A stretch of DNA of 64,000 bases, taken from Icerya purchasi. Its lineage: Eukaryota > Arthropoda > Insecta > Hemiptera > Monophlebidae. Under the pieces are notes generated by a model, which was not told where the DNA came from, did no database searches, and was given only the letters and a program-made list of their open reading frames with translations. The position numbers were made by a program, and so were the translations under genes. Shown here piece by piece: positions 924 to 47,775 of the stretch. Positions within the stretch are counted from its first letter, which is position 1. Each line of letters starts with the position of its first letter. Where the stretch lies: positions 448,373,292 to 448,437,291 of the forward strand of contig CM077115.1 in NCBI GenBank assembly GCA_039619475.1, written 5' to 3'.

Positions 924-1069
924 ATTATTACTTTTATCACTTTTATGTACTTTTGAATTGCGCGCGTTGATATTCATCAAAACGTATAAAACCTTTATCA
1001 TCGCAAAATCAACAATTAACGGAAAAAAATCAAAACTTAATGTATATACTGGCGTGGTGCACTGAAATT
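924..1069 (+). CDS. Terpene synthase-like exon A (ends LAWCTEI), with an internal frame break
   Basis: The acceptor is a T-rich tract plus CAG at 921-923; the donor is ATT/GTAAGT at 1069/1070. Two frames carry homology. The upstream half reads ELRALIFIKTYKTF, like the FPPS region NRGL..V.TYK.L. The downstream half reads NQNLMYILAWCTEI, like ENL.LA.ILGWC.EML. Moving between them needs one surplus base, most simply in the A7 run at 1023-1029. In the downstream frame a TGA at 968-970 closes the reading upstream; in the upstream frame a TGA falls just after the LAWC position. No alternative AG lies inside the exon, so splicing does not explain the break. The exon is entered in phase 2 and left in phase 0, and joins 4920 to give LAWCTEI-HQTT, which aligns gaplessly with FPPS LGWCVEML-QAFF. 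Confidence 0.7.
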
Positions 1070-4000
1070 GTAAGTAAACCGATAAACATTCATCTCTCGT
1101 ATTTTACATTTACCATCGTCGAGTTTCGATATGTAAGTTATCGTTGCATTTGTAAGGCAGATTTAGCGTATGACTGATTCCCTAACCAGATTACTCTATC
1201 ATTGAACAATGAGCAGTTTCCGTGATTATAACCGGTGCTATTATCGCCTGAAATTCTTGAAATTTTTTAAATGTCTGTCTGTTATTTTGGAAAATTTATT
1301 CTCGGAAAATCAATATATTTGTGAAAGTAATAGTTCCCAAAAATCGTCGACGGTGTTGTTCACTTTCAGAACTTGCAAACGCTTAATAAAAGAAAAAAAG
1401 AAAAAAAGCAGCAGATTTCTCGCTAATAAGCGCGCGCAATGTATAAGAAATAATTCACTTAGAAAATATCAGCAGCATGGGAGAAGAAGGGGTTCAGTGA
1501 GAACCGTTGCCCCTCCCCTGTAAGGTTTTGCAGAAGAAAAAAAAGATCAAAGCGGATGAAAAATAAGATTAATCTCTTTTCTTTTTTTTTTTTTTAAATA
1601 TATTTATTTATTGTCGCTCGACAATGGAGCCATTTGCGACGAATATAATACATCTTAACAGTTAACTTATTTAGATACTATTGTACATATTTACATGTTT
1701 TAGGTATGTTAGTACATTTTCACAATTTAGTCTATCGTTGTAAAGGAGTTTATAGGGTTTCCTACCATGTCGCAGGCTGCTCGCTGTGTTTCCCACTTTT
1801 TGCATGTGAAGAGGTGGTCTATCGAGAAAGTCTCTGCTGCGCAGATTTCACAAATGGGCGCCGGCTCCTTGTCGAGGATGTACTTGTGGCTAAATGAGCA
1901 GTGCCCTATTCTTAGTCTTGAAATAACTGTTTCGTCCTGTCTTTTTGGCCAATAGTTGGTTTCCCAGTCGGCAATTTCGTTTTTGATGCGGCGTAGTTTG
2001 TTTTGGATTGGAGAGATTTGATTCCACTCTTTTTGCCAAGCTGAGCGAGTCACCTTTCTGATATGTCTGGTTAAGGACGAGTCCATTTTTTCGCGTCGGT
2101 TTAAGTCTGCTATGGTTTCTTGAAAGGTTGTGTGCCATGGTGGTAGTTCTCTTATGTCCTTTACGATGTCTGGTGTGCCAAAGTTGATGTTTTTAATTGT
2201 ATTTAGGCGCATCGTATCCCCAATGGGTTCGGAGTTTTTGGGTATTTCTCATATAGTTGAATAAAGTTTGGCGAAATAGTTTTTTCGGAAGTAGGATTCG
2301 TTAAATTTGAAATCATTTTTGTATAGTATTTCAGGGAGGAGAAAATTCTTCTATGTTGCAATGGAAAGATGTTTGATTCTAGGTGAAGGCTAACAATTGG
2401 GCTGATATAAAATGCTCCTGTAATGAGTCTTAGAGCTGAATTTTGAACGATGTCCAGTTTTTTCAGAACATTTTCTTTGGCACTACTGTAAATCACGGAG
2501 CCGTAGTCCATCTCTATAACGTGGAAATTTGAAAAAATACATTTTTTTTTTATTTATGTATAATTTTTTTACCAACAAAAAAACCCGAATTTCGATTAAA
2601 TATTATTCGCAACTCGTGTCATGTGAATTATTTCGCTTTGTCATTTTTTTGGTATTTCTCTTTACAAATTCGATACCAAAAATTAGGTATTTTTATATGG
2701 CCAAAATATCTTACATTTTCTTCTCGTAAATATAATATTTTTTATTGTAATTGAATATAGAGAGGCATTGATTTGTTAAAGCGAGGAAAAAAAAAATATG
2801 AATTAGAATAAAATTAGTTTGAAGAAAGTTTCCATACCACACAATAGTGATGGGGGGGGGATCAGAGATTTCGGTGAACCCGTACACAGTCACACAGTTT
2901 TCCATATTTCCCGTCGCGTAAAAATGGTATTGCCATTAAAATATTTCTTATAATACGAGAAATTTTGAAATATGTATGTATTTTATGTAACCAATTTTCC
3001 AGAAACGACTACAACATTAGTCTTACAAATGTTTTTAATTATTTTAAGTAAATCAATTAAATGTTTGGAAAAATAATTACGCTAACAAGAAGTACGATGA
3101 TTATTGTTTTTGTTAATTTTAGTACCTCTAAGTTTATTTTTTATTGTACTTGCGGTAACAATAATATTACTTTCATATTTTCTTTATAAAATTTAGTGTC
3201 AGTCCTTATTCAGATGCCATTTTCTTTTGAAAATTTAATAGTCTTAAGAAAGATGCTCCTATCTTTATCCATGGACCATATATATCCATTACATATTTAT
3301 ATTTGTAACAATGTATTCTTATTATCCTGTATAAATATATTATCCGTTCGAAGTTAAATTATTTATTCCTTCTTGTACGGTTAATGCTTCCTACATATCT
3401 CTTTCCAAACTGAATCGTTTACAGGACCTTTGTCTCCGCCGATGCCTCTCGGAGCTTTGAAGTCATCTCCCACTGCTGCAGTTCTTTCAGAAACCAATAT
3501 GGTTCCTCTAATATATGCGTCGGTCTTATCTTGGCTATCGTTTCTTGATTAAACGATTTCCTATTTCCTCGTCCAATCTTATTAACTCTTATATTTCCAT
3601 ATTACACAACTGGCGCTTCTCTCCTAGGAAAATCCCTATACTTTCTCATATATATCCAAACGACTTAATCAGTTCACTGCTTACGTTTTCTAACAAACTC
3701 CCTTACTTCACACGTTTAATTACTCCAATTCCCTGTATCCGCCTATAATATACACTCTCTTTCCGCCTTTCACAAGAACCTGCCGGCTCATGTAGTCCGA
3801 CAGGAATATAACCATGTCATGCAATCCTTATTTCCTTTTCACACTGTTATCTTTACTGATAGCTCCAGAACACCGGACGGTACGGGAGCTGTCTTTTTGC
3901 TCCCATCACTCAACACTATTTTGAATCTTATAAACTGTCTTTCTTCTGCTCCATATTTACCGCGAAGTCCTCAGCTATCCTTCATGCTATCCTATACATC

Positions 4001-5359
4001 ACTTCCACTAATGGTACTTAATTAAATTACCGTTAGTCTCGGATTCTAAAGGTGTTCTGCTATCTATCGTCTCTCCTATTCCTCGACATTGCTTAGATTT
4101 CATAATTCTCCTAATTCGTCCTCTTGTCACTAGATTGTATAGCGTTCGTTCCATTCAAATCAATTCCTTTGGTTCTCCAGTCATGTTGGTATTGACGGCA
4201 TTGAATTGGTTGATGCATCCGCTCATGTATGCGCATTTATGTTTAATACTTTTTTTATTGATTTAGTCCTTTTTCTTGTTTTGCTTCTAGTCATTCTTAC
4301 ATTACAAACATTTTTTATACCCTTCCCATTGTTTGAAGGGTATAGGATTGTCTATGTAAATTTAACAAACAACTTTCCAGATGTCATCGCTTGTATATAC
4401 TTTATACAAAGGGAACATTATTTTTAACTCTGGTTTCAGCAGCCCTCCAATAGTTTCCAGTTCACTGCTTTATATTTTACAGCCATGCTGTTTACTTTCT
4501 TCCGGGTTCTCCCCGATCTTCTATATTTCCCTGAATTAAATTTAGCAGCTCGTATTTGTTTTCCCTAAGTATGTGTCCAAAATAACATATTTTACGCTTG
4601 CTTATGTCTCCAAGAAGTCGTCTTTTCAGTACTTCACTACCGGTTATTTTTAATGATCTTTTAAAAAATTAATTTTTATAAACCATGCTAACAACATAGA
4701 TGTGTCGAATTAATTATTAACAAAAGCGTTAATTAAAACTGATCGGTTATTTTCGTTTTTACCGCAGGAATTTATAGGTTTGTTGTCATGGCTGAAAGAA
4801 AATAAAGCGACAAAGCATAGTGAAATAATAATATCACGACTAAGTAATTGATTAACAGAATAATGCTTTTCGAATGATTTTACTTCAGTACATTATTATA
4901 ATTTAATATTCCGTTGCAGCATCAAACTACGTGCAATATGATGGATGATATTCTGGATTATTCTTCTGTGAGACGAAATCGACCAGCTTGGCAAATTGTG
5001 ACTGAACAGGAAGGAAGAATGGAACTTTCTTATAACGACTGTCACTTTCTTAAAGAAATCGTATTTCTTATATTAAGGAAGTACTGCCGAAATAAACCGT
5101 ATTATCAAGAACTTTTAGACACCTACCGAATGGTAAGAATGTTATAAAAATTTTTTTCGCAATAACCATTTTGAATAAATGATGTACAATTTTCAATTTA
5201 TGAACAGAAAATGTATCAAATGTTATTCGTACGTCATTTGCTTGCTAAATAGTCAGTAAAATAATAAAATCACAAACGAACATCTTAATGTAAACATAAT
5301 AGTAATTCCAGCCGATTATCATCTAAAAGTAAAATCTACTAAAGTATGAAAAAGCAATC

Positions 5360-5409
<50 letters not shown>

Positions 5410-8400
5410 GTATATAGTAGACTTACTGAAATAGCCATTTATACCGCTATCATGCTTTTTATTCGTTTGCTCCGTCTTGTTTAGGAAGTTCTCTATAGTT
5501 CCCAGTCAAGAGTGGTATCCACGATTTCTCAATTTACATTTTCTTGCACACTTTGTCTACGCTCATTCGTTTCTTGCACAAATGTCTTCTGCACCGCAGT
5601 AATGCCACCCGGGGAAATGAAGTCGTAAACGGATTTGTTTGGAGTTAATGCGATTCCACAACATGGGCCGAAAAGAATATAGTAGCAATAGAGACTAAAA
5701 ATTTTTTAAAAATTAGACAGCTGGGTAGTGAAGTTCAAAAGTACAAGCTGTTACGTAAAATATCGGGAAGGAACGAACACACAATAAAAGTGAGAAATAA
5801 AAAGTGTGAACTGAATATATTTCATACGGTATACTGAATATAGCTTTTTAAAGACAATCTGATATGAAACAGACACGTGTGGGAGCTGGTACCGCTAGAC
5901 ACATGGAAAATGACTCGAGCATCGGCTGAAAGACTGAAATTAAATGAGGGAACTTATCTAAACCGAATGTGCATGTGGAACAGCTGAAGAAAAGAAAAAG
6001 GCCTTCTAAGCATCAACTCCACCAACATGGGCGTCACCAGCGGGGAGCAGGCAGGGACAGCTGTCCCCCCTGGAGCCTTGAAACATTTTAATCAACCAGC
6101 ATTGATGAGTTTTCATAGACGCCTAATCATGGATAATTTGAAAAACTTATGTTTTAATTAAGATTTTGTTCTTGTTTAATAAAATATTAAGTCTTTACAA
6201 CTTATGAATTTTATTTTTCCTATAACTCATATCCTCTTTCTATCATCTTGCCCCTCCCTGGCTCATCGGCTGACGACGCCCTTGTCCATCAACATATTAG
6301 TATGTGTAATATGTGCGGAAAGAAGTGCGGGGTAGTGGCCTTAAAACTTAAAATATTATAATTACAGTCTGCATTCTATACACCACATTGAATGAGTTTG
6401 ATAATGATAAAAAAGTGTGAAATAAAATAATATGCAAAATAAGTAGCAAACAATTATGGGGAAAACTCAAAGTGAATGATAAAAAAGAAAAAATCATGTT
6501 AACGTAACTATAAGTATAATAATTGTATGGCTAAATATGTCGACAAGCACGAGCTTGACGGATGCGATTGTTTTTGTCCTGTTCATTATTAAAATTTAAA
6601 AAAAAAAAAAAGTTATAATCAATAAAATATCTCAACTGATAAATAAACACTGTAGTAAACCATTCACTTATTTTGCATATTTCATTGCAGATTTCATCGG
6701 AGCTTGCTGTGGTAGGTAAATTTTTGTACATGTACCCCTTAACTAGTAATGAACTGAATAATAAAAGTAGGTAATTCGTGTTTTACGGTGTCCGGCGTGC
6801 AAATGTAGCACAATAGGACTCACTCTGGATGCCATGATGCACAAAAATATTACGCTATTTAACGAAGACCTATACAGTGAAATTGCCACCAACAAAGCTT
6901 GCTATCCGACGTTCGTTATGACGGTCGAAACAGCATTTCACGCGGTAATTATCGAAAATGAGATATAATAATTTCATCATTTAAACATCGACTATTATTA
7001 TATACACACTTCAGTGTTTGTTGCGCAAAAGATTTCCTTTTGATTAATTACTTTTTTTACGAGAATATTCGGTAGTCAAAAAAGAAAAAAAAATTCGCCG
7101 AGGAAAATCAAAAAAGATAGAAATTTTAACGAAAAAACGTTATAAAAAAGAGCGATAATCGAAAAATCTGATGCGGGCAACACATGACTTCCTTGTACAA
7201 CTATTAAACATTAACATGAGTAGTAAGTTTTAAACGTGCAATGCCGAATTCAAATTACAGCTATCCGCTTTTAAGTTATGAGAAAAATTCCACGAAACAA
7301 ACCAAGATAAGTGTTCCCTTTGGCCAAACCGATTGTAACTAAAATCGGAGGTATACACAATTAGATATTATATCAATACCGAGTACAAAATTTCGACTTT
7401 CTATGGTTACCTATTTTCGAGTTATGAGAAAAATTCTATGAAGCCCTCCAAGAGGAGTGCCCCTTTGACCACCCAACCGATTGTGTACGATTTATTGTCT
7501 ACGTGTTTATAAATGTAACATAATTAAGCAAATATATACCACAAATGCGTATAGCTGCGCGAGCAGTGGGATTAATTAAATTAAAATTTCCAACATAGTA
7601 CAAAACACGTCCAGTTAAATAGCTTTCTAAATCTACATATAAGCAATCCAGAATTTACTTATGCTAAGTTAAATAACATTTATATATATATATATATATA
7701 TATATGCGCTTACTTCTACACAAACATATAGACGCACACAAACACACATATATACCTACCTACATGCATGATATGCATGTACACACATAAGTGTACTTTC
7801 ACTTAAATATTAATGCATATGTATGTACACATTTTTATATATACACACGCACAAACACACACTTACTTATGAAAATCTTTCTCCAATCCACACACCTGAG
7901 TGTCTATGGTACACATAGTGACGCACACGCACACGGGCACCTCTCAGAATTGCGTTTTGCAGCATAACGTAACGTTTGATTTATCTGAGCACATTAATTT
8001 TATGTGCCAAAACGTTATTACTTTGCTTTAATAATTTTTTAGTCTCACTACTGTGATGCTTTTTGGAATACTGCACGATATAGAATGCTTAAAGTCACTC
8101 GAATTATCTCTATAAGATAAATTTCTATCCGATAACTAATGTGAAAAATAAATACTAATATGTTTCTGGAACAAGGGGAGGTGCACAACTAGATGCTAAA
8201 AGAGTCCTAAAATCAAAATTTCATCTTTCTGCGACTCTAGCCGTTTTTGAGTTACGCATACTACATACATCACACGTCACCAAAATAGATCCAAAAGTAG
8301 TCAAAGTGGATATTTCCGTTGAAATGTGAAATTAAAAATACTTCGCGAATCCTTTTATTCGCATAAGGAAGTGATCAGAGATAGTTTAAATGGATATATC

Positions 8401-11400
8401 CATTGAAATATGGCATTCAACATTTTTCATGATTACAATACTTCCTTTACTACATCATACAGGGCATCAAAAATTTGTGGGAAAAAAATTATGTAAAATT
8501 CGGATGAATAAAGTGTTGAATAGGACAGATTTGAAATATTAAAAACATAAATTTTAATGCTAAGAAATAAAACAATTATACACATACATACATATATATA
8601 TATATACCGTATTTACTCGCCTAATTTCGGCACCCTAATTTTTTCACGCATTTTTTTGGAAAAATAATATAAACCACATTTTCGCGTTATTAAAATACAC
8701 ATTAATAATAGGTTCAACATTACTAGACAATGTCTAATTTCTTAGAAGTAAATTACCGCTACTCGATATTATAAATTACCCTAATGTAGAGTTACACCTA
8801 TTAGTATCGTATAAATAGACTTTTCGAAATGAAAGTAACTGATTTCACTTAATGAGTGTGTTTTGTTTAGGGAAGAAGTAATTTTGAAATACACACCTAC
8901 TATTACGTATAACCCGCCAAATGCAGGTTGGTCTGATTCCCCGCGTAATTTATGCACCCCCCTTTTTGGCAGGTTAAAAACGGCGCGAGTAAATACGGTA
9001 TATATAATACATACATACATACAACCATAATGTATATATATATACTGATATATACACATACATACATATATACCTAAAATTCGGTTCTAAGAACATCGCT
9101 GAAAAAACTTCCCACTTACCGGGTACCAGATGCTGATCTTTTATAAGTTTAATGGAAGAATCAGTTTTAACGGACTATATCATTCGCTACAATATTACCA
9201 TTTTAAGCGTAACACAAAACTAAATTTCATTTCACTTGAGAATGATATTGTCGTTGAAAACGTGATTCAAAAACGATACAGATGCTGTTTCAAGAGCTCC
9301 AGATTACTTCATGCAAAAGAATTGCGTAATGATATTAGTATGTGTGTGATGCACTAAGTAATCTTTTCATTGCAAAATGTTTCGAATGGCATCCTGTAAG
9401 GTCCCATTTTAATAAACAAAATCGTATTTCGTCTCTCTGTTATACTCGTGCTTCTAGAAATTTACAATGCCACTCTCAGTTAAGACGCGTTCTATATTTG
9501 ACGACACTCGAATTACGTACCGTTGTTTACCTGGCCGACGGTTAAAAAAGGTTTAGTAATCTAATTAATCAAATTGCGCACCGGAAGTTTGCCGGTATGA
9601 GAAATATAAAAAATACCAACGAAAACGGCATTCGGACCCCAACGATATATTTGTTGGACTCCAAAACTGATGACCGTTTATAACATATTCAAATGTTCGA
9701 TGGCTTTCAACATTTTTACGCATCATCGTATACTTAAAAGATAGCCTATTTTTCGCAAACCCTTAAGGGAAGGTTTCTTGTCTAAGCAACCGACGAAATG
9801 TAGTTCCCTTAATCCTTAATAGCAAACATTCCCCATCGAGATAAAAATATTTTGAAAGTCACTGAAAAAACGACACTTTTACTGATTTTATTCCTTCGTC
9901 GATTTTATAAAATCCGGAGTTTTTTTTTTTAAAGGCGGTGCGCAATTCGAGTTCGCCGCAGGCGGGCTATTTCGGGTGGTCGGTGCGCATTTCGAGTCCG
10001 ACTTGTCACTGTGTGAAGTGTTGGTGCGCAATTCGGGTGTCCCCCTATATTTATCTCTAATGCGGTATTTTCTCTTCTCTTGTAATTCTATACAACATTC
10101 ACTTTCACGTATGTCTCATTATTACAATGGCCAGGTAGATGGATATTTAATTGCTAACATCCCTATTTAAATCCTGTAGACGACAGCTAAAATAACAAAC
10201 AAGTTAAATAGAAAAATAAACGTTAGCTATGTAGAAAGTAATAAAGCGAATCATGATAAGCAAACTAAGAGTGAACTTTTATCCATCGTGGATAACAGTT
10301 AAAAATAGGTCAGCTTTTATTCACTAGCCATGACCAGACGCAGTTATATTTCTGGATCTGCAACGATGCGATTTGAGATATCTCGATTCCGCAAGGCTTC
10401 ACATGACACAATCGGATGTATATGTCTGGTGCGCGGTGTGATTTAATATGTCTCACAACTCCGAAAGACGTTAGCTACGCATGTAATTGCCAAAATTAGC
10501 CGAGTACGTTCTGCTGCTTTGTACACTCGGAACAGGCGAGCAGAATTAGAGTTGAATATGCGGCGTGAGATTATAACTGCGCATTCGTTACGGGTTAGAG
10601 GCGATAACTCTATCGGATTTGGAGTTGACAAGCAGATAAATATCCGCAATGTTGGAGATCCTCAACTCTTCCGACGGAGTTGACTTGTACACTTACACAT
10701 AACCTCGTTTTATATGGAAGCTACAAACGGTACAGATTTATAAACATAATGACTGTCAGATTGACTAACAGAGAAGTTCATCGTGGAAGATTAGAAATTT
10801 CCCTATTCTTCTTGTCAAAATACGCACTAGCAATCTTTATGTGCGTGTGCAAACATGAGTGGAGTCTGAGTGGATGACCCAAAAAAAAAAAAAAAAACTT
10901 TCCTAAGAAGCACCAAACTAACCCCACCAACCCCTGGCGGTGGCCTTCTGATGTCATAAGCAGGAAAAAATATTCGATACTTAATCGTCTCCAGACGAGG
11001 CGCATACTGCTGCGCTAATAACTATCTTTATGCCAACGAGCTGTTCTCCATATGTCTGCTGCCAAACTAACTAACTGTGACACATCTCATTTATAACTGC
11101 AAGAAGCTCGCGCCACACCAGAAAGCGCATAATATAGGGAGGTCGCTGTGTACGGAATTCTCTCCATCACTCCTGGCGCGCCATTGTCAAAATTCTGATG
11201 TTTGCCATGGAAACCGGGTTACATTTGTACTTATAAATAATTCGCATAGTTCTCTATGTTCTGTACTGGCCTAGGCAATTAAAGACGGAACATAGATATG
11301 TGAAATTTAAAAAAAAACAACAAATCAAACAGTTCTTCGTTTGTCTTATTATCTAGATAGATTTTCTTCGCAACACGCAAAGGTAATTTTTTTTCAGCTA

Positions 11401-13738
11401 CCGTAGATTTCATTTTTTTTAACACACACACGCCAATTCTGAGTTCTGTTTTCACGATTACTTTCAAATTTTCTGCAATCTTCAATTTTTTTTAAATCTA
11501 AAAAAACAACAGATTTATTCCATCCTGTTCATAGACGCGATGTGACATTGTTTGCGAACACTCCATTTACATGCGTCTCTGCCCTATTTCACTGCACCAG
11601 CCAATACTCCTTTTTTCCTTTACCAAAGCATACTGCATAAAGCTCTCTATACGGTACTCAACTTTTTACTATTTTGTGAGCAAAAAAATCACTTCAATTG
11701 TTCTTTGTGGAATTTTAAACAAAAAACGAATAGCACTCTGATGGTACTATAACGTATATTCAATTATAGATTATCCCACTAAAGATACTTACGCTCCAGA
11801 AATTTTCTTTAATCTTGCAATAATTTTTTCAGAGTTTAGAAATTACCTTAACAGTGATATTTAATATCGTTACGATTGTTTCCTACCACTAGGCCGGATT
11901 TTATAACGAAGATTCGTGGCAGCAAATCGAGGACATAATTGTAGATTTCGGGACATTTCATCAAATCAGGGTAAGTTTATTATGTTTAATGTTCTTTCGT
12001 AGGAAAATAAAACATAACTATTCCGTAAGGTACATTGCAGTTGGTAGAGAAAGCATTTAAAAATATGTTATCTAAATTGAAGCTCATCTGGAGGTTTTTT
12101 TATTTTTGTTCAATGTAATAATCTGTAACAGTTATGTTGGCCAGAAACGGTAATATTTAAGGTTTTCGCGCGTAAGATGCAGTAATAAATCGAGCAATTT
12201 TTTTCACGATCACAGTTCCTGATTCTTGAAGTTTTTCCAGGGAAATGTTGTATTTTTAATATTATCTGTACAGAAGTGTTTCCAGGAGTTTTTCCAGGAG
12301 TTTACTTTTGCCGGAATTATGACACAGCGTTTTCTCGAACATGTAATTTTTCGGTTTCTTCTGACCGTAGTAGGACTTTGTTAAAATCGCCCCTTCATTT
12401 TATTATTCCGACAATTATTTGTTTTGGTTTTTTATTTTGTATTTCCGATTCTCTTTAATAGTTTGACTCGCTGAGTTCCCCTCCCCCATGTAGTCAAATA
12501 AATTTGACTTTACGCAGCCTTCAACATATCCCTTACTTGGCTTTTTTTTTTGGCTATAGCTGGTGATGATTCTTTTCGTTTCTTTATAAAAGATAATTGT
12601 GATTGGCTTTTTTTTTTTTCAGAATTTAAAGCCCAGGTGAAAGAAATTGATTTAACCCGGAAAGTGATGAATTTCCGTGTAACGGGCATAGACCTCATAA
12701 AAAATCTACACTTTTTTCCCTCTTTTGTTTTGCCTGGTCCATTTGGCGGCCATTATTAAGTTTATTAATTTTTTTCTCCTTCCCTTTTCCCTTCCACATA
12801 CATACGTATATATAAGGATAAAAATAACAATGCGTAAGCAAGGGTAGGACCGGTCGGTCATCCACCGAAATTATTTGGTGCATATATTTTTTTTTTTTTT
12901 TTCTACCCCAGGCGCGCCAACGGCCTTGACTCAACAACATGAAAAATAAACTAAAAGTTGGGCGTAAAGAAAGGAGCGTTCGTTGGAGAGTGCAGAACAT
13001 ACGAATAGGATATGATTTGAGTGTCACAAATACAAGAAGACTCAGAAGCGTGAAGAGAGCAGAAATGAGAAAAAGCTAAAGAAAAACGAAAGCGAGAAGA
13101 AGGGAGTAGAGAATGATTGATTCTAAGTCTAATTAAGGAAACAACAGTGGAACGACGACAGATAGGAATAGATTGAAACCAAGGCGCAGGAAAAACCGGT
13201 TGAATAGGACGGCAGTATGAATAATGATTTGAGGATAAAGATGGATACATGTCAGACCAAATGCATATAGTTCTATGGTATTAGATAAAACTTGCACAAT
13301 CGGCGCAACAAGGATGAAAGTTACTTTTAACGAGAAATACAATCAAACACGTTTAAGCAACACATTCGAATTCAATCAAGTACACATCTTTAGCGGTAGT
13401 TTTTAAATACACGCAGTTGAATATGATCGTTTGTTTATTTGTTGTTTTTTTTAGGATCTTTTTCATCCTTTATGTGCGTCGAAAATACCTTTGTGATTAT
13501 TATAGTGTTTTAACTTAAATGTTCAAATACCATAATTAGAACTTATTTAATTATTAGAACGACTACCAAGGATACAAGGAAGACGTCAAAAGAGGTAAGC
13601 CAGAGGAAGACATTCAGCTGGGACAGTGCACTTGGTTCATAGTGCAAGCGTTGAAATTGGCAGATTCAACACAAAAAGCTACTCTACAGGTTAGTATTTG
13701 ATTAATTTGAAGAGTTCATGTATGCGCCTCCATCGAAT

Positions 13739-13798
<60 letters not shown>

Positions 13799-16700
13799 AC
13801 ATATGTACATTCCTATTATTATTGAGGAAATCCATTCATCGGCATATTACATACAGATTTTGCTCCGTTATTTTCTATTCTTCTTTTCAGTGGCGGAACA
13901 TTTTCTTTCTATTTTTCTTATGACTTCTACAACTTTAAAGGATATTTTCAATACGTCGCTTCTTCTCAGTACATGATCAATACAATTTTTTATTCTGTTT
14001 TTTTCTCCCGGTAAAAATGCAGAACACCTTCTCCAGTTCACATTGGTTTTTTAGTTCATATACTTACACAGGGATGAATCCAGTGGGTTTTTTTTTGAGG
14101 GGGGGATGACCCCCAGAACTCAAAAATTGCCCCCCCCCAGAACTTAATACAAGCTGTTTAAGAATGCAGCAATTTAAAAGGAAATAAAAATCTTTTTATT
14201 CGCTTTATTTACACAGTTATGTCAAAAGTTGCTGCCAAAACATTTTCGATATGGTTCAATTAGTGTCGTATATTTTTAAATTTCAAAATTACGAGAATTA
14301 TTTTTGACGAAAAAATGAAACTTCATAAAATGACAATAACAAAAAATGATCTTTTAAAATTTGGCTTTGGTGTTTGCTTGTTATTCTATGAAAAAACTGA
14401 TATTGGCTTTTATTGCAAATGTGCGAAAGATGTAAAATACGGACGAGCTGAAAAAATTATTCGCTGCAGTTCATATTTTTTGTTAGCGTAAAGGAGAACT
14501 ACTTCGCGTTTCACGTTATCCATTTATAATTAATATCAATAAATTGTTTTTAAAGTTTTTCTTTTCTGTTTTCATTCATTCTTTTTTTTTTTTTTTTAAA
14601 GCAACATGATCTATAGAAAATTTAATTTCAATGTCTCTTTTGATTTTTTCTTGTTTTATATTTCCAAGAAAAGTCCCCATTTAAAATATCTGAAACCACG
14701 GCTATTCGTTTATTACAAAAAGATAATGAACCCGTTAGAATGTTCTTACAATATGTTCTTTAATGGTGCAATTAGAATTAATAATTTTAAAACCAATTGG
14801 GAAAACATTGTTGTTTATAATCGGCGTTATTTTACTTCAGAATTTATTATTCACACTTGCTTTGTCTCATTATTTTAAATTACATAATAAACATCATTTT
14901 TTACATATTCTGTTTTATTCGGGAATATCCCAAAAAGATTTTCTCAGTAAAAATATAAACAAAATCTCTGCCCCCTCGGAGACAGATTTCTGAATTCATT
15001 CCTATTCTTACATACGATGTAATTATTATTTATTTCATTACTGACCTATCGGTAAATTCATTTTATATGTTTCCAGAATTTCAAAAAAAAAAACAACTAA
15101 TTTTTAGGTTTTAAACCGGATCAATCATTCTCTCCTCCCCCCTCTCGCTTTCGATTTGCTCTGTTGCCTTCTTCTTATTGTTCTCTTCACGATTGTGAAC
15201 GTCCTCGTATATGTGATTCTGATCACATTTTCTTCTTCGAGTGCCCTGCCCTTCGTAATGAACACTTCCATTTATACAGTCAGCTCTTGTCATTAGGTCT
15301 CCCTACTCCCTATAACTCTTCCTTTATCCTCTCCTTTCCTTCATCTTCTGCGGTGTCTGCACTGCTGTCTTTTGTTGCGTCCATTTCGGACCGCCTAGCT
15401 ATTTAGATCTTTAGCTTAGTTTTTCCTGTTGTTGGGTCAATGCCGCAGGCGCGCCTACAAAAAAACAAAAAAAAAAAAAGAAAGTTTTAAAGTATTATAA
15501 ATTTAATATTAATAATTTTAAAAAATTTTATGCGAAATTATTTACTTTTAGATTTAAAATTTAGTACATGTGTTTTCGAAAATTAAAATTTTAGTTTAAT
15601 TTTAAAATGTAAATTTCAACACTTCACAATTTCACATGTCATCCTTGTGTAGGGGTCAAGCTAATCTTTTCTATTCGTTGCAATTTTAGTATATGTGTTT
15701 TCGAAAAATTTTAATATGTAATGGTTGAAATTTTACTTCGTTCATTTCTGGTCTTATTCGTAATTTACATTAGTTCGCACACCATGATTAAGATGACAAA
15801 CGAACGAACTGAAATTTCGATCAAAATGAACTGGAGACGCTGTTCTGCACGCTTACCTTTTTTCCCTCTGTTCATCAGGTTTTTGCCGCACTGAACGAGC
15901 TACATGCGCAATGTACACTGCACATTTTTCATTATGAAAGTGTGACTATGCTATCACTTTTTTATCACAGTGAAATAGCATTCATATGACTAATTTATAA
16001 ATACGCTTGCGAAAATCTGTCAACTGTGACAAACGAAAGGCGATAATGCAGCGACCCGGCAATTATTAAAGTTTATTAATACAATAAGACGTATTAATTT
16101 TACTTTTAAATATACTTCTTAATGTGTTTGTAATTTTTCTTTAAATAACATATTTCAATTTTTTTTAAAAAGTTATATGTTTCAATAAGCTTTTTTGTTT
16201 TAAAATTATTTTGTCACTCATTTCCATACTTATTTATGTACATAATATATATATATATATATTGTTGTAAATTATCTTCTCTTCTTTTTTTTTACGGGCG
16301 CCCGTAGAGTTTGGCTTCACATACCGTTTTCCTTTTTATTATGATGGAAATAAAATCGTTATTTTTATTTTTTCGTATACAGATACTTTTTAAATGAAAC
16401 GATCAAGAGTCGGAGCCGCGTATTCTAGTATATCAACAATGTTTCTAAACTATACTTCCATATCGCGACACGATATTACACAAAGTGATCGGCAAAACTC
16501 TCACTTGCGAAGTAGGATCGTCGTTCCCGATAGCGTCTTATTTCTGCTACCTGCGCATTGTTCCGCCGACATCGGTGGTTTACGGTCGTATCTTATCACT
16601 GACATACACACACGCACACAGACACCTGTGCCATAAATAATGAACGATTTTCGGCCGGTAGACCAGATCAACTGATAACCCGTCTTTTATATCTGCGCGT

Positions 16701-18934
16701 GTTTTATACGGCGATTATCATTTAAACTAAAAACAGCACACACATTCATTTTTGGCGTCGTTACAACTAACCAAAAGATAGCGCCACAAACCTTGATATG
16801 TAACAACATGTAATTGAGAAGACGATACACGTAAAAAGAAATACACTATCACAAAAAATGGATGAAGATAATTTCAATTTCAAATACACTATATATCAAC
16901 AAAGTAAAAATGAATACATGTTTCATAATTTCTTCCTCTTCTTCTAAACCGATATCCGTTCCGAATGTCGCGTGACCTTATCTAACGCAAAGTATAATAC
17001 GTCGCCATTTATCTCGCTCATAGGCTAGCTCCTTTAATTCCTGTATGCCCAATCCAGATAGCTTCATGATCTGATTGATGTAGCGGTTTATCGGCTTGCC
17101 TTTCCTTTTTTTTTCATTCACCTTCCTTTGCAGAATCTTTTTCTCCAAACCATTTGCACGCATTATATGATCAAAGAAGGGGCTAGCATACGTCTTTTAA
17201 TGGATACTGATAACCGGTCACTGGTTTCAACCTGTAGTCGTTCTATGAGCCGTCCATAGGGAATCCTTAGGATTCTCCGACATCCTTTCATTTTGAACGC
17301 CTCGATCTTCTTCCCCATCGCTCCGTTAATCGCCCACGTTTCTGATCCGTATGATGTTATTGAGATAACTAATGTGTTTAATAATCGTAGTTCTGATGAT
17401 CTGGAAATCTTGTGTAGTCTTGCCATATACAGTTTAGTTTTCCAACCCCTACGTTGGCTAATGCTAACCTTCTGCTTATTTCTTCATTTGATCCGCCATT
17501 TTTGGATATACATGCGCTCAAATAGATCTGTTTATTCTTGATTTCTATTTCTTACAACAATATCAGTGGTTGTTGAATTCTGTCCTCCTTATCAATGAAT
17601 ATAATTGAATACTTACGTTTATTCAGTTCTAAGCCCGCTTCTTTCCCCACAGCATCCACTCTTGAAAATACCTCAGGCAATTCTTTCTCATCGCTGGCCA
17701 ATATTATTGTGTCGCCTGAAAACCTTTGATTTGTGATGCTTTTTTTTCTAATAGATATTCCACTTGGCCATCCACCCGTTACGTGCCTCGTAATCTATTC
17801 CCCATAAATACTAAAGAGGGTTACTGATATACAGCAGCCTTGTTGTACAACTATTTTTGACGAAAATCCTTTAGATTTTTCCTTCTCCTGTTTAATATAT
17901 GCTCGTTTGTACCCGGCAAAGCAGGAACAGGTACTAATTTTAAAGACAAATAATGGAGAAGCTTAATGACTACAACATACCGGGAGGACTAGCTGATTTC
18001 TAGATTACCGGAAGGCATTTGGTAATGTTACAACGGACGTAGCAAATTTTACTAGAAATAGGTACACTCAAACGTCTAATGTTTCATAATAACAAACTAT
18101 TAATATATATATATATATATATATAGTCAGGGATATATAATAAAAATCCAAATGCAAATGCTGTAGAAGACTAAAATCCTATTTTGCTAGCACAACATTT
18201 ACATCTGAATTGTTACTACATACATATATACCATGAATACTGTAACATATCCGGGTTTGTGGCGTCATCTTTTGATTAGCTGTGACGGCACTGAGAATAA
18301 GCGTATGCTCTACTTTTAGTTTATATAATAATCACTATCCAAAATGCACGCCGATGTATATAGGGACAGGTCATCAGCTGATCTGGCTGACTGAACGGAC
18401 ATCGCTTATCATTATACGGTGCTTCAATATGGCTGCAAATCGCACCTTCTGAGGAACGATAAAGCGCTATCAGGAACAACGTTTTCAGATCGCAGTCGAA
18501 ACGTGTTTTTGTATTGTTGTGTTAGATTTCGCGCCGAGGACGAAAGGGGTTTTCAGCGTAATTCGTATAATGATAAAATCCGCGTTTTATTCTCGTCCGT
18601 TCACTGTTGTTATTATTAGCATTTGCAACTTTTTCGTAACCAAGTAGTCGAAATAAAGTTGAATTACGAAAATCTATTTATTTCCATCTGCCGATAAGAG
18701 AAAAAAACGGTATGGAACTGAACTGCACTGGTACCCGGAAAAATAAAGAAATGAAAAAAAAAAAGACCGTGATATTGCCTTCATCTGTCAATCATCATCA
18801 GGTTTAGCTTTCCGAACCAGGAGCTGTCAAGTTAGAGAAAGAACTAAATTCACGACAATATATAGTTTGTTACTACGAAACATCATGGTTTTTACTTTAT
18901 TGATATATACAGTGTATTTCTATTTATGTGCTTC

Positions 18935-18974
<40 letters not shown>

Positions 18975-19413
18975 CCCTTTTTATATATTTATTTCGCATT
19001 ATTCCTTTTTATTTTTCATATAAATTACTTCCTTTATCGTAAGTTTTCTATTACATAATTTTTTTATTGTTTGAAACTATAAAAAGGTGTCTCATCAAAT
19101 GCGTATACATTATAAAAAATTACGTTTTTGCAGATTGTATCTAAATTAACTGAATTATAAAACATTATTATGAAATATTCACTTTTTTCGCTATTAGAAA
19201 TATTTCGGAAAATCCGGGACGGAGAACGCGTTAGAAGTGTCCAATGTTTACGATCAATTGGATTTGCCATCGAAATACGCAATACACGCGAACGGAATGT
19301 ACAAAAATATGATAGAAAAGATAGATCGGTTACCGGATGAATTGGTCCGGCAGGCCCTAAGGAAAGTTTTAAAAGTCCTAATTGACTTTTCTGACGCAAC
19401 GTTCCAGAAGTGA
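924..19413 (+). CDS. IDS-type terpene synthase / FPPS-like gene, 3' part, seven exons (5' end outside window)
   Basis: Seen: seven GT/AG-bounded exons (924-1069, 4920-5132, 6691-6715, 6817-6944, 11893-11970, 13558-13689, 19198-19413) joined in compatible phases encode about 310 residues ending in TGA. They follow FPPS order: an R..L...TYK stretch, LAWCTEI, first Asp-rich motif DDILD then RR....W, GLTLD, a Lys-containing helix (EIATNK), then NDYQG where FPPS has DDYLD, then EDIQLGQCTW where FPPS has TDIQDNKCSW, then the C-terminal helix exon with YDQLDLP. Known: FPPS condenses IPP with allylic diphosphates using both DDxxD motifs and Mg2+; insect IDS-type terpene synthases descend from FPPS and often have a degraded second motif. 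Inference: a diphosphate-ionising terpene synthase and not an FPPS. The first roughly 60-100 residues lie upstream. One frame break is present in the first exon, so a young pseudogene is possible. Introns are 0.1-5.5 kb and full of mobile elements. Confidence 0.8.
1575..2520 (-). pseudogene. R1/I-type non-LTR retrotransposon relic (RT C-terminus plus C-terminal zinc motif)
   Basis: On the minus strand, 2511-2203 reads like the end of a reverse transcriptase ORF (MDYGSVIYSSA, KLDIVQNSALRLITGAF). 2212-1727 reads like the post-RT C-terminal region ending in a C-x2-C-x8-H-x3-C motif (CEICAAETFSIDHLFTC). The two frames overlap by a frameshift, and the RNase H domain expected between them in I-type elements is absent. 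A T-run at 1580-1595 on the + strand is the poly(A) tail. It lies within the exon A-B intron. Confidence 0.75.
2530..3400. other. Intronic AT-rich sequence, no gene seen
   Basis: Only short low-complexity reading frames. A G8 run at 2853-2860 and the surrounding text resemble the degenerate ends of local MITE families, but no partner end was found. Confidence 0.4.
3405..4230 (+). pseudogene. Non-LTR retrotransposon relic (RT end and RNase H), same family as 44.7-46.0 kb
   Basis: The + strand reads LGYRFLIKRFPISSSN and NWRFSPRKIPILSH, nearly the same as the copy at 45.4-45.6 kb (LGYRFLIKRLPISSSK, CWRFSPHKIPILS). Downstream, VIFTDSSRTPDGTGAVF is the first RNase H motif, and near 4.17 kb SSHVGIDGIELVDASA is the last RNase H motif (HVGI.GNE.VD). 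Several stops and frame changes interrupt it. No 5' part or tail is present. Confidence 0.72.
4290..4675 (-). pseudogene. L2/CR1-like LINE fragment (C-terminal part of RT ORF)
   Basis: The minus strand reads KRRLLGDISKRKICYFGHIL, then RENKYELLNLIQGNIEDRG, then WL.NIKQWTGNYWRA. This is the typical post-RT tail 'KLEYFGHI.R..KYELL.LI.QGKI..R..GRR..SWL.NL..W.G' of L2/CR1-like LINEs. At least two in-frame stops. Probably the same kind of element as at 17.0-17.4 kb. Intronic. Confidence 0.7.
4920..5132 (+). CDS. Terpene synthase-like exon B with first Asp-rich motif (DDILD)
   Basis: 213 nt, phase 0 at both ends; acceptor CCGTTGCAG/CAT, donor CGAATG/GTAAGA. The 71 residues contain MMDDILDYSS followed by RRNRPAW, matching the FPPS first Asp-rich motif DDIMDxSxTRRGxPxW. 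They continue through a loop and the helix ending NKPYYQELLDTYRM, which matches the FPPS helix (R/K)xPYYxxLLELF. The three Asp of DDxxD that coordinate Mg2+ and the substrate diphosphate are intact, as is the Arg-Arg pair after it. The residues before the motif (TTCNMM) replace the chain-length region (AFFLVA in FPPS), losing the two Phe that normally gate product length. That suggests a reshaped active-site pocket. Confidence 0.88.
5133..6017. other. Intron B-C part: (TA)n tract, otherwise nothing recognised
   Basis: Contains a 46-bp (TA)n tract at 5363-5408 and unique-looking AT-rich sequence. No coding frame or element end recognised. Confidence 0.5.
5363..5408. repeat. (TA)n microsatellite in intron B-C
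   Basis: Uninterrupted 46-bp TA run. Similar tracts at 7681-7705, 18939-18972, 20654-20708, 28995-29032 and 57587-57638 are part of the same general background. Confidence 0.95.
6026..6284. mobile_element. hAT-like MITE family 1, copy 1 (259 bp), with near-perfect 8-bp target duplication
   Basis: Ends are imperfect inverted repeats: CATGGGCGTCACCAGC at left, and at right the complement of CAAGGGCGTCGTCAGC. Flanks are TCCACCAA (6018-6025) and TCCATCAA (6285-6292), seven of eight bases identical, as expected for a hAT-type insertion. The interior is shared with 21102-21346 and 26643-26906. No coding capacity. Lies in the exon B-C intron. Confidence 0.82.
6691..6715 (+). CDS. Terpene synthase-like microexon C (25 nt)
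   Basis: The acceptor is TTTCATTGCAG at 6680-6690 and the donor GTAG/GTAAAT at 6715/6716 is close to consensus. It encodes ISSELAVV plus one base, entered in phase 0 and left in phase 1. Joined to exon D it gives RMISSELAVVGLTLD, which aligns without gaps to the FPPS stretch LFLQSSYQTEIGQTLD. Neither flanking exon can supply these residues, because exon D extended to the next in-frame AG (6770) would add too many residues and break the alignment. Very short, so supported by homology and splice sites together and not by coding statistics. Confidence 0.7.
6817..6944 (+). CDS. Terpene synthase-like exon D (GLTLD and Lys helix)
   Basis: 128 nt from acceptor ACAATAG/GACTC to donor CACGCG/GTAATT, entered in phase 1 and left in phase 0. 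Residues GLTLDAMMHKN match the FPPS motif GQTLDLLTAP, but the Gln is Leu here. YSEIATNKACYPTF matches the FPPS helix Y.SIV.YKT.FYSF; the substrate-diphosphate Lys is kept, while the following Thr is Ala. The exon ends TVETAFHA, continued by AG in exon E as in FPPS AAAMYMAG. The intron to exon C is only 101 nt, against 1.6-5.5 kb for the others. Confidence 0.83.
6945..8604. other. Intron D-E, first part: no gene seen
   Basis: AT-rich intron with a (TA)n tract at 7681-7705 followed by CA-rich low complexity to about 7940. Two similar phrases near 7,265-7,350 and 7,400-7,480 (AAGTTATGAGAAAAATTC versus CGAGTTATGAGAAAAATTC, then GACCA/GGCCAAACCGATTGT) hint at a diverged ~135-bp tandem duplication. 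Confidence 0.4.
8606..8999. mobile_element. TA-flanked MITE with perfect 15-bp terminal inverted repeats, copy 1 (394 bp)
   Basis: Starts ACCGTATTTACTCGC and ends with its exact reverse complement, with TA on both sides, as for Tc1/mariner/pogo-type insertion. Internal phrases (CACATTTTCGCGTTATTAAA, TAGGTTCAACATTACTAGAC, GATTCCCCGCGTAATTTA) recur in the copy at 61500-61907. No transposase. Confidence 0.9.
9570..10045. repeat. GGTGCGCAATTCG repeat block
   Basis: GGTGCGCAATTCGAG at about 9936, GGTGCGCATTTCGAG at about 9981 and GGTGCGCAATTCGGG at about 10023 form three direct copies about 43 bp apart. An inverted ATTGCGCACC lies near 9573. This could be the remains of a 450-bp inverted-repeat element; no target duplication was established. 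Confidence 0.45.
10046..11892. other. Intron D-E, last part: no gene seen
   Basis: No reading frame with recognisable similarity. An A17 run at 10880-10896 could be a retroposon tail, but nothing upstream of it is recognisable. Confidence 0.4.
11893..11970 (+). CDS. Terpene synthase-like exon E
   Basis: 78 nt, phase 0 at both ends; acceptor TACCACTAG/GCC and a perfect donor AGG/GTAAGT. It encodes 26 residues from AGFYNEDSW to DFGTFHQIR. In FPPS this is AGI......, a Leu-rich helix and GEFFQIQ, the lead-in to the second Asp-rich motif, so the Phe-x-Gln-Ile signature is conserved. The exon is too short and too far from its neighbours (4.9 kb and 1.6 kb introns) to be found by ORF length. It was identified by its fit between exons D and F. 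Confidence 0.82.
11971..12885. other. Intron E-F, first part: no gene seen
   Basis: Contains the short direct repeat TTTCCAGGAGTTTTTCCAGGAG near 12,280 and T-runs. The frame open at 12550-12759 is low complexity and has no family signature. Confidence 0.4.
12886..13350 (-). pseudogene. 5'-truncated non-LTR retrotransposon 3' end (LPSSRFRF family), copy in intron E-F
   Basis: The minus strand encodes SLLPSSRFRFSLAFSHFC and CICD, matching the 3' segments at 15.1, 32.2 and 41.1 kb. The T17 run at 12886-12902 is the poly(A) tail, preceded (minus strand) by GGCGCGCCTGGG, as in the 15.44 kb copy (GCAGGCGCGCCTAC). Severely 5' truncated and frame-broken. Confidence 0.68.
13558..13689 (+). CDS. Terpene synthase-like exon F with degraded second Asp-rich motif (NDYQG)
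   Basis: 132 nt, phase 0 at both ends; acceptor TTATTAG/AAC, donor CTACAG/GTTAGT. It starts NDYQGYKEDVKRGK where FPPS has DDYLDCFGDPSVTGK, so only one Asp of DDxxD remains. It continues EEDIQLGQCTWFIVQAL where FPPS has GTDIQDNKCSWLVVQCL: the DIQ and CxW anchors remain, but the Asp-Asn-Lys triad is Leu-Gly-Gln. In FPPS the second motif binds the Mg2+ that positions the allylic substrate, and the TDIQDNK strand belongs to the same site. Loss of both argues against chain-elongating FPPS activity and for a terpene-synthase role. Confidence 0.87.
13741..13792. repeat. (TA)n microsatellite, 52 bp, just after exon F
   Basis: Uninterrupted AT dinucleotide run starting about 50 nt past the exon F donor. 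Confidence 0.95.
14069..15004. mobile_element. hAT-like non-autonomous element carrying a small ORF, copy 1 (936 bp)
   Basis: The left end CAGGGATGAATCCAG and the complement of the right end, TAGGAATGAATTCAG, are inverted repeats. Flanks TACTTACA (14061-14068) and TTCTTACA (15005-15012) match in seven of eight bases, as in hAT insertions. The interior holds a short frame at 14316-14490 (MKLHKMTITKNDLLKF, then CAKDVKYGRAEK). It is repeated almost unchanged in the copy at 34.86-35.57 kb. C- and G-runs near both ends are typical of these families here. Confidence 0.78.
14316..14490 (+). other. Small ORF inside the 14 kb element (KNDLLKF family)
   Basis: About 58 residues, starting MKLHKMTITKNDLLKFGF and containing an F-Y-C-K-C cluster, ending shortly after YGRAEK. 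The sister frame at 34887-35084 is nearly identical over its first 47 residues. I do not recognise the family. It could be a fragment of the parental transposase or non-coding sequence kept in frame by chance. Confidence 0.35.
15108..15482 (+). pseudogene. 5'-truncated non-LTR retrotransposon 3' end (LPSSRFRF family)
   Basis: The + strand reads PSSYCSLHDCERPRICDSD, HIFFFECPALRNEHFHLY and LSLGLPTPYNSSFILSFPS, the family's C-terminal cysteine/histidine region after RNase H. It is followed by a short 3' UTR (GGTCAATGCCGCAGGCGCGC) and an A-rich tail at 15460-15482. Located in the exon F-G intron. Confidence 0.75.
15490..16965. other. Intron F-G, first part: nothing assigned
   Basis: AT-rich. A (TA)n-TTGTTGTAA junction at 16245-16270 resembles those at 20.25 and 20.65 kb. 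A less AT-rich stretch at 16394-16640 has an 80-codon frame without recognisable similarity. Confidence 0.4.
16975..17430 (-). pseudogene. L2/CR1-like LINE fragment (RT C-terminus)
   Basis: The minus strand reads NTLVISITSYGSETWAIN and KKIEAFKMKGCRRILRIPYG, then in another frame KGKPINRYINQIMKLSGLG. These fit the 'SYGSETW.......IEAFEM.C.RR.LRI' and 'GRP..R' segments of L2/CR1-like LINE ORF2 C-termini. RT sequence may extend to about 17.9 kb (minus strand) in broken frames. Possibly the same element as 4.3-4.7 kb. Confidence 0.75.
17950..19197. other. Intron F-G, last part: (TA)n tracts, no gene seen
   Basis: TA tracts at 18106-18124 and 18939-18972. A less AT-rich block at 18360-18600 has no family signature. 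Confidence 0.45.
19198..19413 (+). CDS. Terpene synthase-like terminal exon G with stop codon
   Basis: 216 nt including TGA at 19411-19413; acceptor CGCTATTAG/AAA, entered in phase 0. It encodes 71 residues beginning KYFGKSGTENALEV, matching the FPPS stretch NYGQKEAEKVARV, then VYDQLDLPSKY, matching ALYEELDLPAVF, then a helix and DRLPDELVRQALRK, matching the FPPS C-terminus LPPAVFLGLARK. The tail continues about ten residues past the usual FPPS end (KIYKRRK), so the basic C-terminal tail that closes over IPP in FPPS is replaced by an uncharged one. No frame disruption is seen. A 3' UTR of about 280 nt is interrupted by a (TA)n tract. Confidence 0.88.
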   Translation, partial: KYFGKSGTENALEVSNVYDQLDLPSKYAIHANGMYKNMIEKIDRLPDELVRQALRKVLKVLIDFSDATFQK

Positions 19414-32142: not shown

Positions 32143-32760
32143 TCTTTTTTTTTTTTTTTTTTAAATGGGCTCGGTGTTAACACTGATCCAACTACATGGA
32201 CTTAGATCACCTACTCAGATTCTAAGGCGATCGGAGATAGAAAGTATAAAGGAAAGAAGGAGAACGGCTGGAGATGGGAAGGAAAGGATAAAGGAAGCAT
32301 TGAAAGGGCTAGGAAGATCGAAAAGTTCGGCGTATAGATGAGAGCACTCAGGAAAAAGAGCAGGGCATTCAAAAAGGATATGGTTGGGGTCGCATATAAA
32401 GGGAGGATCAGTAGGGTGGAGAGGGAAAAAGGGAGAAGGTGAAAGAGAAAAAGAAAAACGAGAAAAGGGAAGGAGGGAATGACCAAGTCTCAGTCTGATT
32501 AAAGAAACAATAGCCGAGCGCCGAGAAAAGGGAAGAAACTGGTACCAAGGCTGTGAATTGGGAGTAGAGGCTGTAGGAGGAGGTAGAAGGAGGAACGATT
32601 GGCAAAAAACGAAGGGTAGATGTCAACCCATAGTCCGGTATGGAGACTTGCGGAGAGGACTTAGAATGTCTGAGGCAGGAAAATGTGGAAGGAATGGACC
32701 ATTGAGAGACGCCGAACGAGCTAGGAACTCAGCTGCTTTCACTCTCTACAACTTATTAAA
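32143..32760 (-). pseudogene. 5'-truncated non-LTR retrotransposon 3' end (LPSSRFRF family)
   Basis: The T-run at 32145-32162 on the + strand is the tail. The minus strand then gives the 3' UTR shared with the 47.7 kb copy (GATCTAAGTCCATGTAGTTG, GTTAACACCGAGCCC), followed upstream by a CDPN/ALFFLSALIY-type C-terminal segment. Very close to 47490-47775 over the last 250 bp, so the two copies are relatively young. Confidence 0.78.
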
Positions 32761-32869: not shown

Positions 32870-34855
32870 TCCCGGTTTACTATTACCTCACCATTCCATT
32901 TACATTGCTGTCTGCTACCTAGACGTTTTAATCACACATTATTTCCACGTTTTCGTTTGTTTTTTTGAAATTTCAACTTTGTTCGTTTTATTCTAAGTTT
33001 TTTGTCTCTCATCTCAATTATATCGTTTCTCTTCCTCAAAAGTCGTCATATTCTATTCTCATTTATTCAAAATGTAGGCTTCCTACTCTTTTATAATGTC
33101 CAGAAATACTCTCTTCGCTACTAATTATTCCCACACTTTCTTCTCTATTGCGCTCTATGCGCGCATATTCGACCGTATGAACTCCAATGGATGCTTAATT
33201 TCTCTTATCTCAATTCTGAAAAACTTCTCCTAACTGCCTCCCCCCACACAGAAAGAAAAAGAATAATAATGCAGTGATAATACGTAACGTATAGAAGAAG
33301 TTAAGGTGTGAGCCTTTTGCATTGCTATAAAAAGAATATCGCCCCGTAAAAAATTGCGAAGAAACTTTGGACTTTTGTCGGTTCCGTTTTTAATCACTAA
33401 GACATTTTTACGCTTTGACCATTGTCACTCTACTACTTTAATAATAATAAAATTATAAATATTCTTCGGATTCCTAAGGAAATGTAGTAGAATTTAATAA
33501 ATTAAATAATTATTTTATTCTTTCTCGAACACTGTGATTTCAATAGGCTTAATAAACGCGTAACACGTAGTTTGTTTTTGTTTATTTTTTCAAGTGCAAT
33601 ACAAGTCGGTTATAATAATACGGAAAGAGATGTATTAAATGCAGCGTTTTAATTAACGTCTAATTCGCGATAATTTGCCATTACTGAATATCGTGAAATA
33701 TGTACGGAATAACTTTTCAGTAATTAAATTAATAATCTCATTTCAGTGTTTGGAATCGCGGAGGAGGATGAAAGATATGAAACCTTTCGAAATCTATGAC
33801 CGGAAACATTTTTGCTTATAAACGAGCGAACGCGAAAGCACGGTATATACTTAAACCCTCGAAGAGGTTCTTCTTTTGGAAGAATTTCTTCTTTTCCTTC
33901 TTTAGAATTGCTCGTCTTTCACATATTTAGAGAATAGTTGGTGTTTTTTTAACTCCCATCCTCTGAACACCCTTCCAATTTCAACATTCCTATTATGAGC
34001 CCACATTACCTAATACTGATTTTATTACCCTTAATTAAAGGTTCCCCCAGCTTTGATAAATTGTATTCCACTCCTTTTCAACGAAATTTCCCCTCTAACT
34101 TCCTAATTTCTAACATTAACGAAATTCAAATCTATTCCTTCAAAATCTCTCACGTTCCGAGTCTCGATGATATATCTCGCCCTTAAAAACCTGTCTAAGT
34201 GTGTTAGTATTCTCCTGAAAACTTTTTGTAATACTTAAGCACCTAAGACTTCCTCCATGGTGGATATGATTAGAAACCATGTTATAAAAAAATTATTTTA
34301 TTTATAATGTGTTTCAGACAGCTTACACTGACCATCATCCGAAGCGAATACTTTCCTCTTCAGATTCCTCTCTCCTCGAACACACTGTCATCATTGTTCC
34401 GAAAAATATTCCTTACATTTAATTTCCTTAGCATGCTGCATATCAGAAAATTAGTTAAATTCATGTTGAACAGGATAATAATGCGGTCGCCCCAGTAGTA
34501 ATATATCTGGCGGCCCTCGACCTGGTATTTGCCGCTCTTTTGTTTCAAATATACATACGTATAGAGTAATCATTCATCAGCGTTACACTTCCTTTATCGA
34601 TATCTCGTCTGCTTCTGGTAATGTGCATCTGAGAAAAAATGCCAGCAAATAATATTCCCGTTCAGTTTTCTTCCCGTATTATATTAACCTTGCAATAAAT
34701 CGTTCTATTCACCTCTCTTCTTCATTTCTCTAGCCTAAAATAAAGGTCTCCAAAAATATCCGAATTTTTTCGATATCTACACTATTAATATTGTTTATTT
34801 CCCTTTCAATTCCTTCTCTTTAATAACATCTTACTTTTCTCTTCTTCCTTCGGTC
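32870..34855. other. Intergenic; scattered unrecognised sequence
   Basis: Pyrimidine-rich stretches (32.9-33.2, 34.3-34.9 kb) may be old + strand copies of the same non-LTR family, but no motif is certain. An acceptor-like TTTCAG at 33742-33747 precedes a short open stretch (FGIAEEDERYETFRNL then stop) that cannot be tied to any gene. Confidence 0.35.
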
Positions 34856-47489: not shown

Positions 47490-47775
47490 ATAAAAACAAC
47501 TCAACTGATCCTCCCTTTATATGCGACCCCAACCATATTCTTTTTGAATGCTCTGCTCTTTTTCCTGAGTGCTCTCATCTATACGCCGAACTTTTGGATC
47601 TTCCTAGCCCTTTCAATGCTTCCTTTATCCTTTCCTTCCCATCTCCAGCCGTTCTCCTTCTTTCCTTTATACTTTCTATCTCCGATCGCCTCAGAATATG
47701 AGTAGGTGATCTAAGTCCATGTAGTTGGGTCAGTGTTAAGACCGAGCCCATTTAAAAAAAAAAAACAAAAAAAAA
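47490..47775 (+). pseudogene. Non-LTR retrotransposon 3' end (LPSSRFRF family) with A-rich tail
   Basis: The + strand reads the family's C-terminal region (CDPNHILFEC-like) to SISDRL, then the 3' UTR GATCTAAGTCCATGTAGTTGGG and an A-rich tail (47754-47780). Probably the 3' end of the element at 44.74-45.96 kb, separated from it by the minus-strand ORF1 insertion, although part of RNase H is missing from both halves. Confidence 0.72.

Follow-up and report, generated by a model that had tools for sequence, protein, structure and literature searches.

Does the FPPS-derived gene described here, gene C of Icerya purchasi, encode a working terpene synthase? Insect terpene synthases derive from duplicated isoprenyl diphosphate synthases (IDS); for the pheromones of scale insects, most of the enzymes responsible have yet to be identified (PMC10960109). 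We analysed a window of 64,000 nucleotides (C1:448373292-448437291) in a genome of 1,103,370,081 bases and 41 contigs, of which C1 has 601,656,059 and C2 497,304,701 bases; the assembly is based on HiFi reads at a mean depth of 31 and comprises two chromosomes (PMC11183206). Our conclusion, to which we assign a probability of about 0.68, is that gene C originated as a duplicate of a scale-insect FPPS-like gene, now dispersed and diverged, and that it likely yields no working full-length enzyme, being either a young pseudogene or a decaying gene.

Exons and motifs of gene C

As listed in Table 1, gene C consists of a frame-broken exon and six further exons spanning 4920 to 19413 on the forward strand. 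The six exons have AG acceptors and GT donors with agreeing phases, and their spliced product comprises 263 open codons followed by a stop. At the base composition of the window, 263 consecutive open codons would arise by chance with p = 3.9e-9, and homology speaks against chance besides. The encoded protein matched PF00348 (polyprenyl_synt) with an E value of 2.8e-27 and 96 bits at a cut-off of 27, while its relatives D and B from the same genome reached 155 and 180 bits. Its best match in the PDB was the leaf-beetle isoprenyl diphosphate synthase (Phaedon IDS, 4.8e-31), and vertebrate FPPS was matched as well. When the intact relative P0001, a protein of 411 aa from a public assembly (E 4.4e-85 with C), was searched across the window by tblastn, the pieces of gene C were recovered at E 1.6e-21, 4.2e-17, 1.7e-12, 1.2e-9, 1.4e-5 and 3.0e-4, and the next match stood at 0.82; the 25-nt mini-exon is below the length that tblastn can detect singly. 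A retrocopy was rejected, since the introns are retained and their borders are nearly those of the relatives A, B and D. The 101-bp intron at 6716-6816 is missing in these three genes, pointing to an intron gain or a splice rearrangement.

Table 1. Exons of gene C (window positions) and its FPPS-family relatives (C2 positions)
Feature	Position	Strand	Content
Gene C exon, second known	924-1069	+	FPPS helices preceding the first Asp motif; both splice sites (AG acceptor, GT donor) intact; frame-broken
Gene C exon	4920-5132	+	First Asp-rich motif DDILD, also RRNRP; open
Gene C mini-exon, 25 nt	6691-6715	+	ISSELAVV; followed by an extra intron not in A, B, D
Gene C exon	6817-6944	+	GLTLD (GQ to GL) and NKACYPTF; open
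Gene C exon, 78 nt	11893-11970	+	Terminates in FHQIR, ahead of the second motif; open
Gene C exon	13558-13689	+	Altered second motif NDYQG and RGKPEEDIQLGQCTWF; most conserved exon, 75% to P0001
Gene C last exon	19198-19413	+	Stop codon; C-terminus non-basic; lowest conservation, 39% to P0001
A, FPPS	C2, 5' exon near 219963806 and exons 219996650-220020096	+	DDLMD, DDYLD, end KRRN; partial model
B, FPPS-like	C2:220303190-220331917	-	363 aa open over the seven exons found; DDMLD, NDYDC, end IYDK
D, FPPS-like	C2:220369978-220392919	-	366 aa open over the seven exons found; DDILD, NDYQG, DNKKVRA kept

The motifs of gene C depart from those of canonical FPPS. Its second motif reads NDYQG, as do those of D and P0001, where FPPS has DDYLD, and is one residue shorter when aligned. 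The protein ends in ..FSDATFQK, compared with ..KIYKRRN in the FPPS of the same genome (A), and gene C has neither the DDxxD second motif nor the basic C-terminus of a canonical FPPS. Among 43 positions that are identical across A, B, P0002 (a second protein relative) and three other relatives, C and P0001 have nine changes in common, including GQ to GL, VQ to IR before the second motif, the last D of the second motif to Q, and K to Q before CTW. Several positions on the IPP-contact side are also changed in gene C. The residues on the GKxxR side, with its Lys and Arg, are kept in D and P0001 but lost in C, and among the conserved residues the change of KT to KA and the loss of the Lys of GKxxR are seen in C alone. 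The sequence NDYQGYKED was compared with the consensus of the NSE-type metal motif; P0001 has N at the last position, and we do not claim convergence. Both the FPPS-family exon pieces of the preliminary description, six plus a frame-broken first one, and the features it had singled out, namely an intact DDILD, an altered second motif, changed IPP-side residues and a non-basic C-terminus, were borne out by this analysis.

Frame switches at the 5' end of gene C

The window starts about 1.4-1.6 kb downstream of another 5' exon of gene C, C1:448371667-448371846 (L009:8376-8555), which matches in two frames and holds one frame switch. Exon 924-1069 likewise matches in two frames and holds two more, one in a T-rich stretch near 950 and one in an A-rich run near 1021-1030. 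Compared with the intact P0001, gene C thus has three frame switches in its first 326 coding nucleotides and none in the next 792, an outcome that was the same at each penalty of the frame-tolerant alignment (12, 15 and 20). The first and second switches combined restore the frame, and only the third leaves a break. For a working copy, the preliminary description had named further inactivating changes in 5' exons as half of what would speak against it, and the exon upstream of the window carries just such a change. The start exons of B, C and D were not located in the models built. Assuming indel ratios, the lesions of gene C correspond to about 1.5-2.8% neutral divergence, a rough bound only. 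A 34-bp AT-rich unit is repeated in tandem at 571-883 (9.2 copies, 93% matches), and this array ends 40 bp before the frame-broken exon.

Gene C might nevertheless be a working IDS-type terpene synthase, making a volatile or a pheromone precursor, if the switches were assembly errors, or if alternative splicing or different 5' exons circumvented them. Its 263-codon 3' part is open over six exons with every splice site intact, DDILD is preserved, the exon with the catalytic-side block is the one closest to P0001, signs of past constraint are present (see below) and, as assembled, there is a single net frame break, located in an A-rich run. Intact splicing, the long open part, the single net break and the signs of constraint likewise argue against decay. 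However, the three frame switches occur in a HiFi assembly, whose mean depth of 31 makes three independent errors seem unlikely, the conserved residues lost in C alone add to them, and the genome also holds the relative D, whose frame is open. We therefore regard a working gene C as rather unlikely, and a terpene-synthase role for C as assembled is unlikely too.

Alternatively, translation could start inside exon 924-1069 and produce a shortened protein with a non-catalytic or regulatory role. The frame is indeed open from an ATG within this exon through the stop, and the lesions cluster 5' of it (p = 0.025 for all three switches to fall in the first 326 nucleotides if evenly spread), but such a protein would be missing the helices that precede the first Asp helix in FPPS and, judging from the fold, should not fold as an enzyme, which makes this alternative very improbable. 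In the preferred reading, that of a pseudogene or decaying gene, the three switches leave the long frame of C broken, from which we infer that gene C most likely encodes no full-length working enzyme.

Relatives of gene C and their possible functions

The relatives A, B and D span about 0.43 Mb on C2, and gene C sits on the other chromosome, C1. The exon borders of D are nearly equal to those of C. Searching the genome with D produced 18 matches, each of them at A, B, C or D, with no further D-type locus beside D and C among the best candidates, which were the ones scored. A search for homology between the introns of C and D gave seven matches in total, lying at exons except for three at a repeat-like L009 stretch. 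C1 also carries loci with DDIQD and DDVID, whose motifs fit GGPPS and decaprenyl synthase in the motif table for Planococcus citri (PMC10960109). The arrangement is consistent with a scale-insect FPPS-like gene that would have been duplicated with its introns kept, copy C having been dispersed and the open-frame copy D lying on chromosome 2.

Used singly as queries in protein searches, C and P0001 each retrieved P0001 and no other protein. A profile of four sequences found 18 proteins, among them P0002 (62% identical to B) and 16 others; eight of the 18 entered a 12-row tree, six a 10-row tree and 13 a structure alignment, those left out being short, near-duplicate or distant. The source sequences of P0001 and P0002 (the longest 1394 and 1494 bases) fit transcripts. 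In the 10-row tree C, D and P0001 group together as a clade (100/100), as do B and P0002 (95/96; 99/98 in the 12-row tree without D), both clades standing apart from FPPS. It is conceivable that C is simply an ordinary FPPS, given its PF00348 match and the FPPS fold of P0001, for which FPPS-type chains were among the 50 matches listed in two fold comparisons. Gene C, however, is only 27% identical to the FPPS of its own genome, and it falls outside canonical FPPS in both trees; an ordinary FPPS is contradicted by motifs and tree alike and has next to no chance of being right, and the earlier view of C as a non-canonical, FPPS-derived gene stands. Since the order of branching among C, D and P0001 is not settled by the tree, the duplication that gave rise to C may be older than the split from the species of P0001.

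Identity from the first motif on was 71.4% between D and P0001, 55.0% between C and D, 52.7% between C and P0001 and 65.5% between B and P0002; in the 5' exons it was 66.7% for D and P0001 and 42.2% for C and P0001. Branch lengths in the 10-row tree were 0.54 for C, 0.19 for D and 0.27 for P0001. Relative-rate counts for C and D were 26 to 12 with A as outgroup, 19 to 21 with B and 17 to 17 with P0002, so that a faster evolution of C, supported by outgroup A only, is not secure. Depending on the exon, 54.6-76.5% of bases are identical between C and D, whose differences by codon position number 96, 58 and 144 in 262 codons. This third-position excess shows the pattern of coding constraint, part of the signal coming from changes in D itself; dN between C and D was 0.33 by one method, and dS was not computable. 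Moreover, at sites common to D and P0001, gene C changes 10 of 51 that are family-invariant and 51 of 138 others (p 0.024). Together, the codon-position pattern and the fewer changes at family-invariant sites show that C was under constraint for part of its history, in keeping with an ancestor of C under protein-coding constraint.

The ancestral D-type protein would have had the FPPS fold and retained the first Asp motif and several of the residues holding the allylic diphosphate, while the second motif and the IPP side had each been lost in part. A D-type protein may accordingly be pictured as binding one allylic diphosphate and ionising it, in the manner of a terpene synthase rather than for chain elongation. 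IDS-type terpene synthases of insects (flea beetle PsTPS1, stink bugs, sandfly LlTPS) are likewise derived from FPPS or IDS, with the first Asp region kept and the IPP side changed (PMC10962984, PMC9960045), and active ones keep 3-4 of 15 IPP-contact residues (PMC10962984). Activity has been shown for these enzymes, whereas D and P0001 are candidates by sequence, and in both of them GKxxR retains its Lys and Arg. With regard to a complete reading frame, C has its three frame switches whereas D is open over the seven exons found, and a terpene-synthase role for D is plausible. From canonical insect FPPS (gene A, and Phaedon IDS in the PDB) both C and D differ in the second motif, the GQ, the residues before the motif and the basic end, while fold, exon borders and first motif are alike. 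A warning that FPPS-like does not imply terpene synthase comes from cockroaches and termites, whose divergent FPPS-like clade resembles C in being a divergent FPPS duplicate but has both Asp motifs disrupted, and whose termite members were without terpene-synthase activity in the assays named (PMC13143122). With D, whose frame is open, at another place in the genome and a further frame switch in the upstream 5' exon, gene C is, contrary to the earlier proposal, not the leading candidate for a new function; B and D are better candidates for terpene enzymes.

Like Coccomorpha FPPS-like genes, gene C combines a DDxxD first motif with a non-canonical second motif beginning with ND. A similar pattern in Coccomorpha was reportedly found by Rebholz in 2023, as cited in the work on P. 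citri. Seven FPPS-like genes with such motifs, transIDS8-13 and 18, are tabulated for P. citri, their function being open, and transIDS9-12 are higher in virgin than in mated females (PMC10960109). With these genes C also has in common that it stands apart from canonical FPPS and shares the duplication pattern of scale insects and mealybugs; its NDYQG, by contrast, is absent from the second motifs tabulated for P. citri (NDYND, NDYCD, NDYYD, NDGVAL, NDGFVL), and its 5' exons are broken (PMC10960109). This likeness is one of tabulated motifs, our tree having been built without P. citri sequences and grouping C only with D and P0001. The kind of gene is therefore not undescribed, as had been suggested, and C is a new, probably degenerate member of a known, little-characterised FPPS-like kind.

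Mealybug pheromone chemistry suggests a further alternative, in which the NDY lineage couples two C5 units irregularly (lavandulyl- or chrysanthemyl-type). All of B, C, D, P0001 and P0002 carry NDY instead of DDY, and one proposal (cited in PMC10960109) holds that replacing Asp by Asn in the second motif favours such activity; yet the same change abolished irregular activity in P. citri transIDS5, and none was seen among the tested P. citri FPPS-like proteins (PMC10960109), making irregular coupling highly improbable. It is a long shot, too, that D, P0001 and formerly C, the genes with NDYQG, would be an undescribed giant-scale-insect terpene-synthase lineage making a mating signal, and that C was lost in I. 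purchasi because this signal had become partly dispensable through hermaphrodite selfing.

Icerya belongs to a non-neococcoid tribe (PMC10158165), and the A-B-D cluster with its two diverged open copies thus suggests that diversification of FPPS-like genes was not confined to mealybugs. The main text of PMC10158165 contains no farnesyl or terpene term, and the listings and abstracts of the open-access literature yielded no paper on an Icerya terpene synthase or pheromone. It is the A-B-D cluster that most merits further attention. The broken gene C is chiefly a caution, and possibly a trace of relaxed selection in I. purchasi, which is a selfing hermaphrodite.

Other contents of the window

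Ten open reading frames of the window were compared with Pfam, and two were matched. Retrotransposon remains lie at 44764-45264 and 48848-49555, with reverse transcriptase (RVT_1, E 4.9e-9) and RNase H (E 1.4e-6). Adjoining them on the reverse strand, a 289-aa open frame at 46067-46936 had no Pfam match at 0.01; our guess is that it is gag-like. Further retrotransposon remains are found within an intron of gene C, where 3514-3645 is 75% identical to 45451-45582. The window also contains a direct repeat pair, 14283-14501 with 14695-14977 against 34854-35518 (95% and 89%), with the first copy inside a gene C intron, and an inverted pair, 32145-32412 and 47504-47771, with 97% identity over 268 bp.
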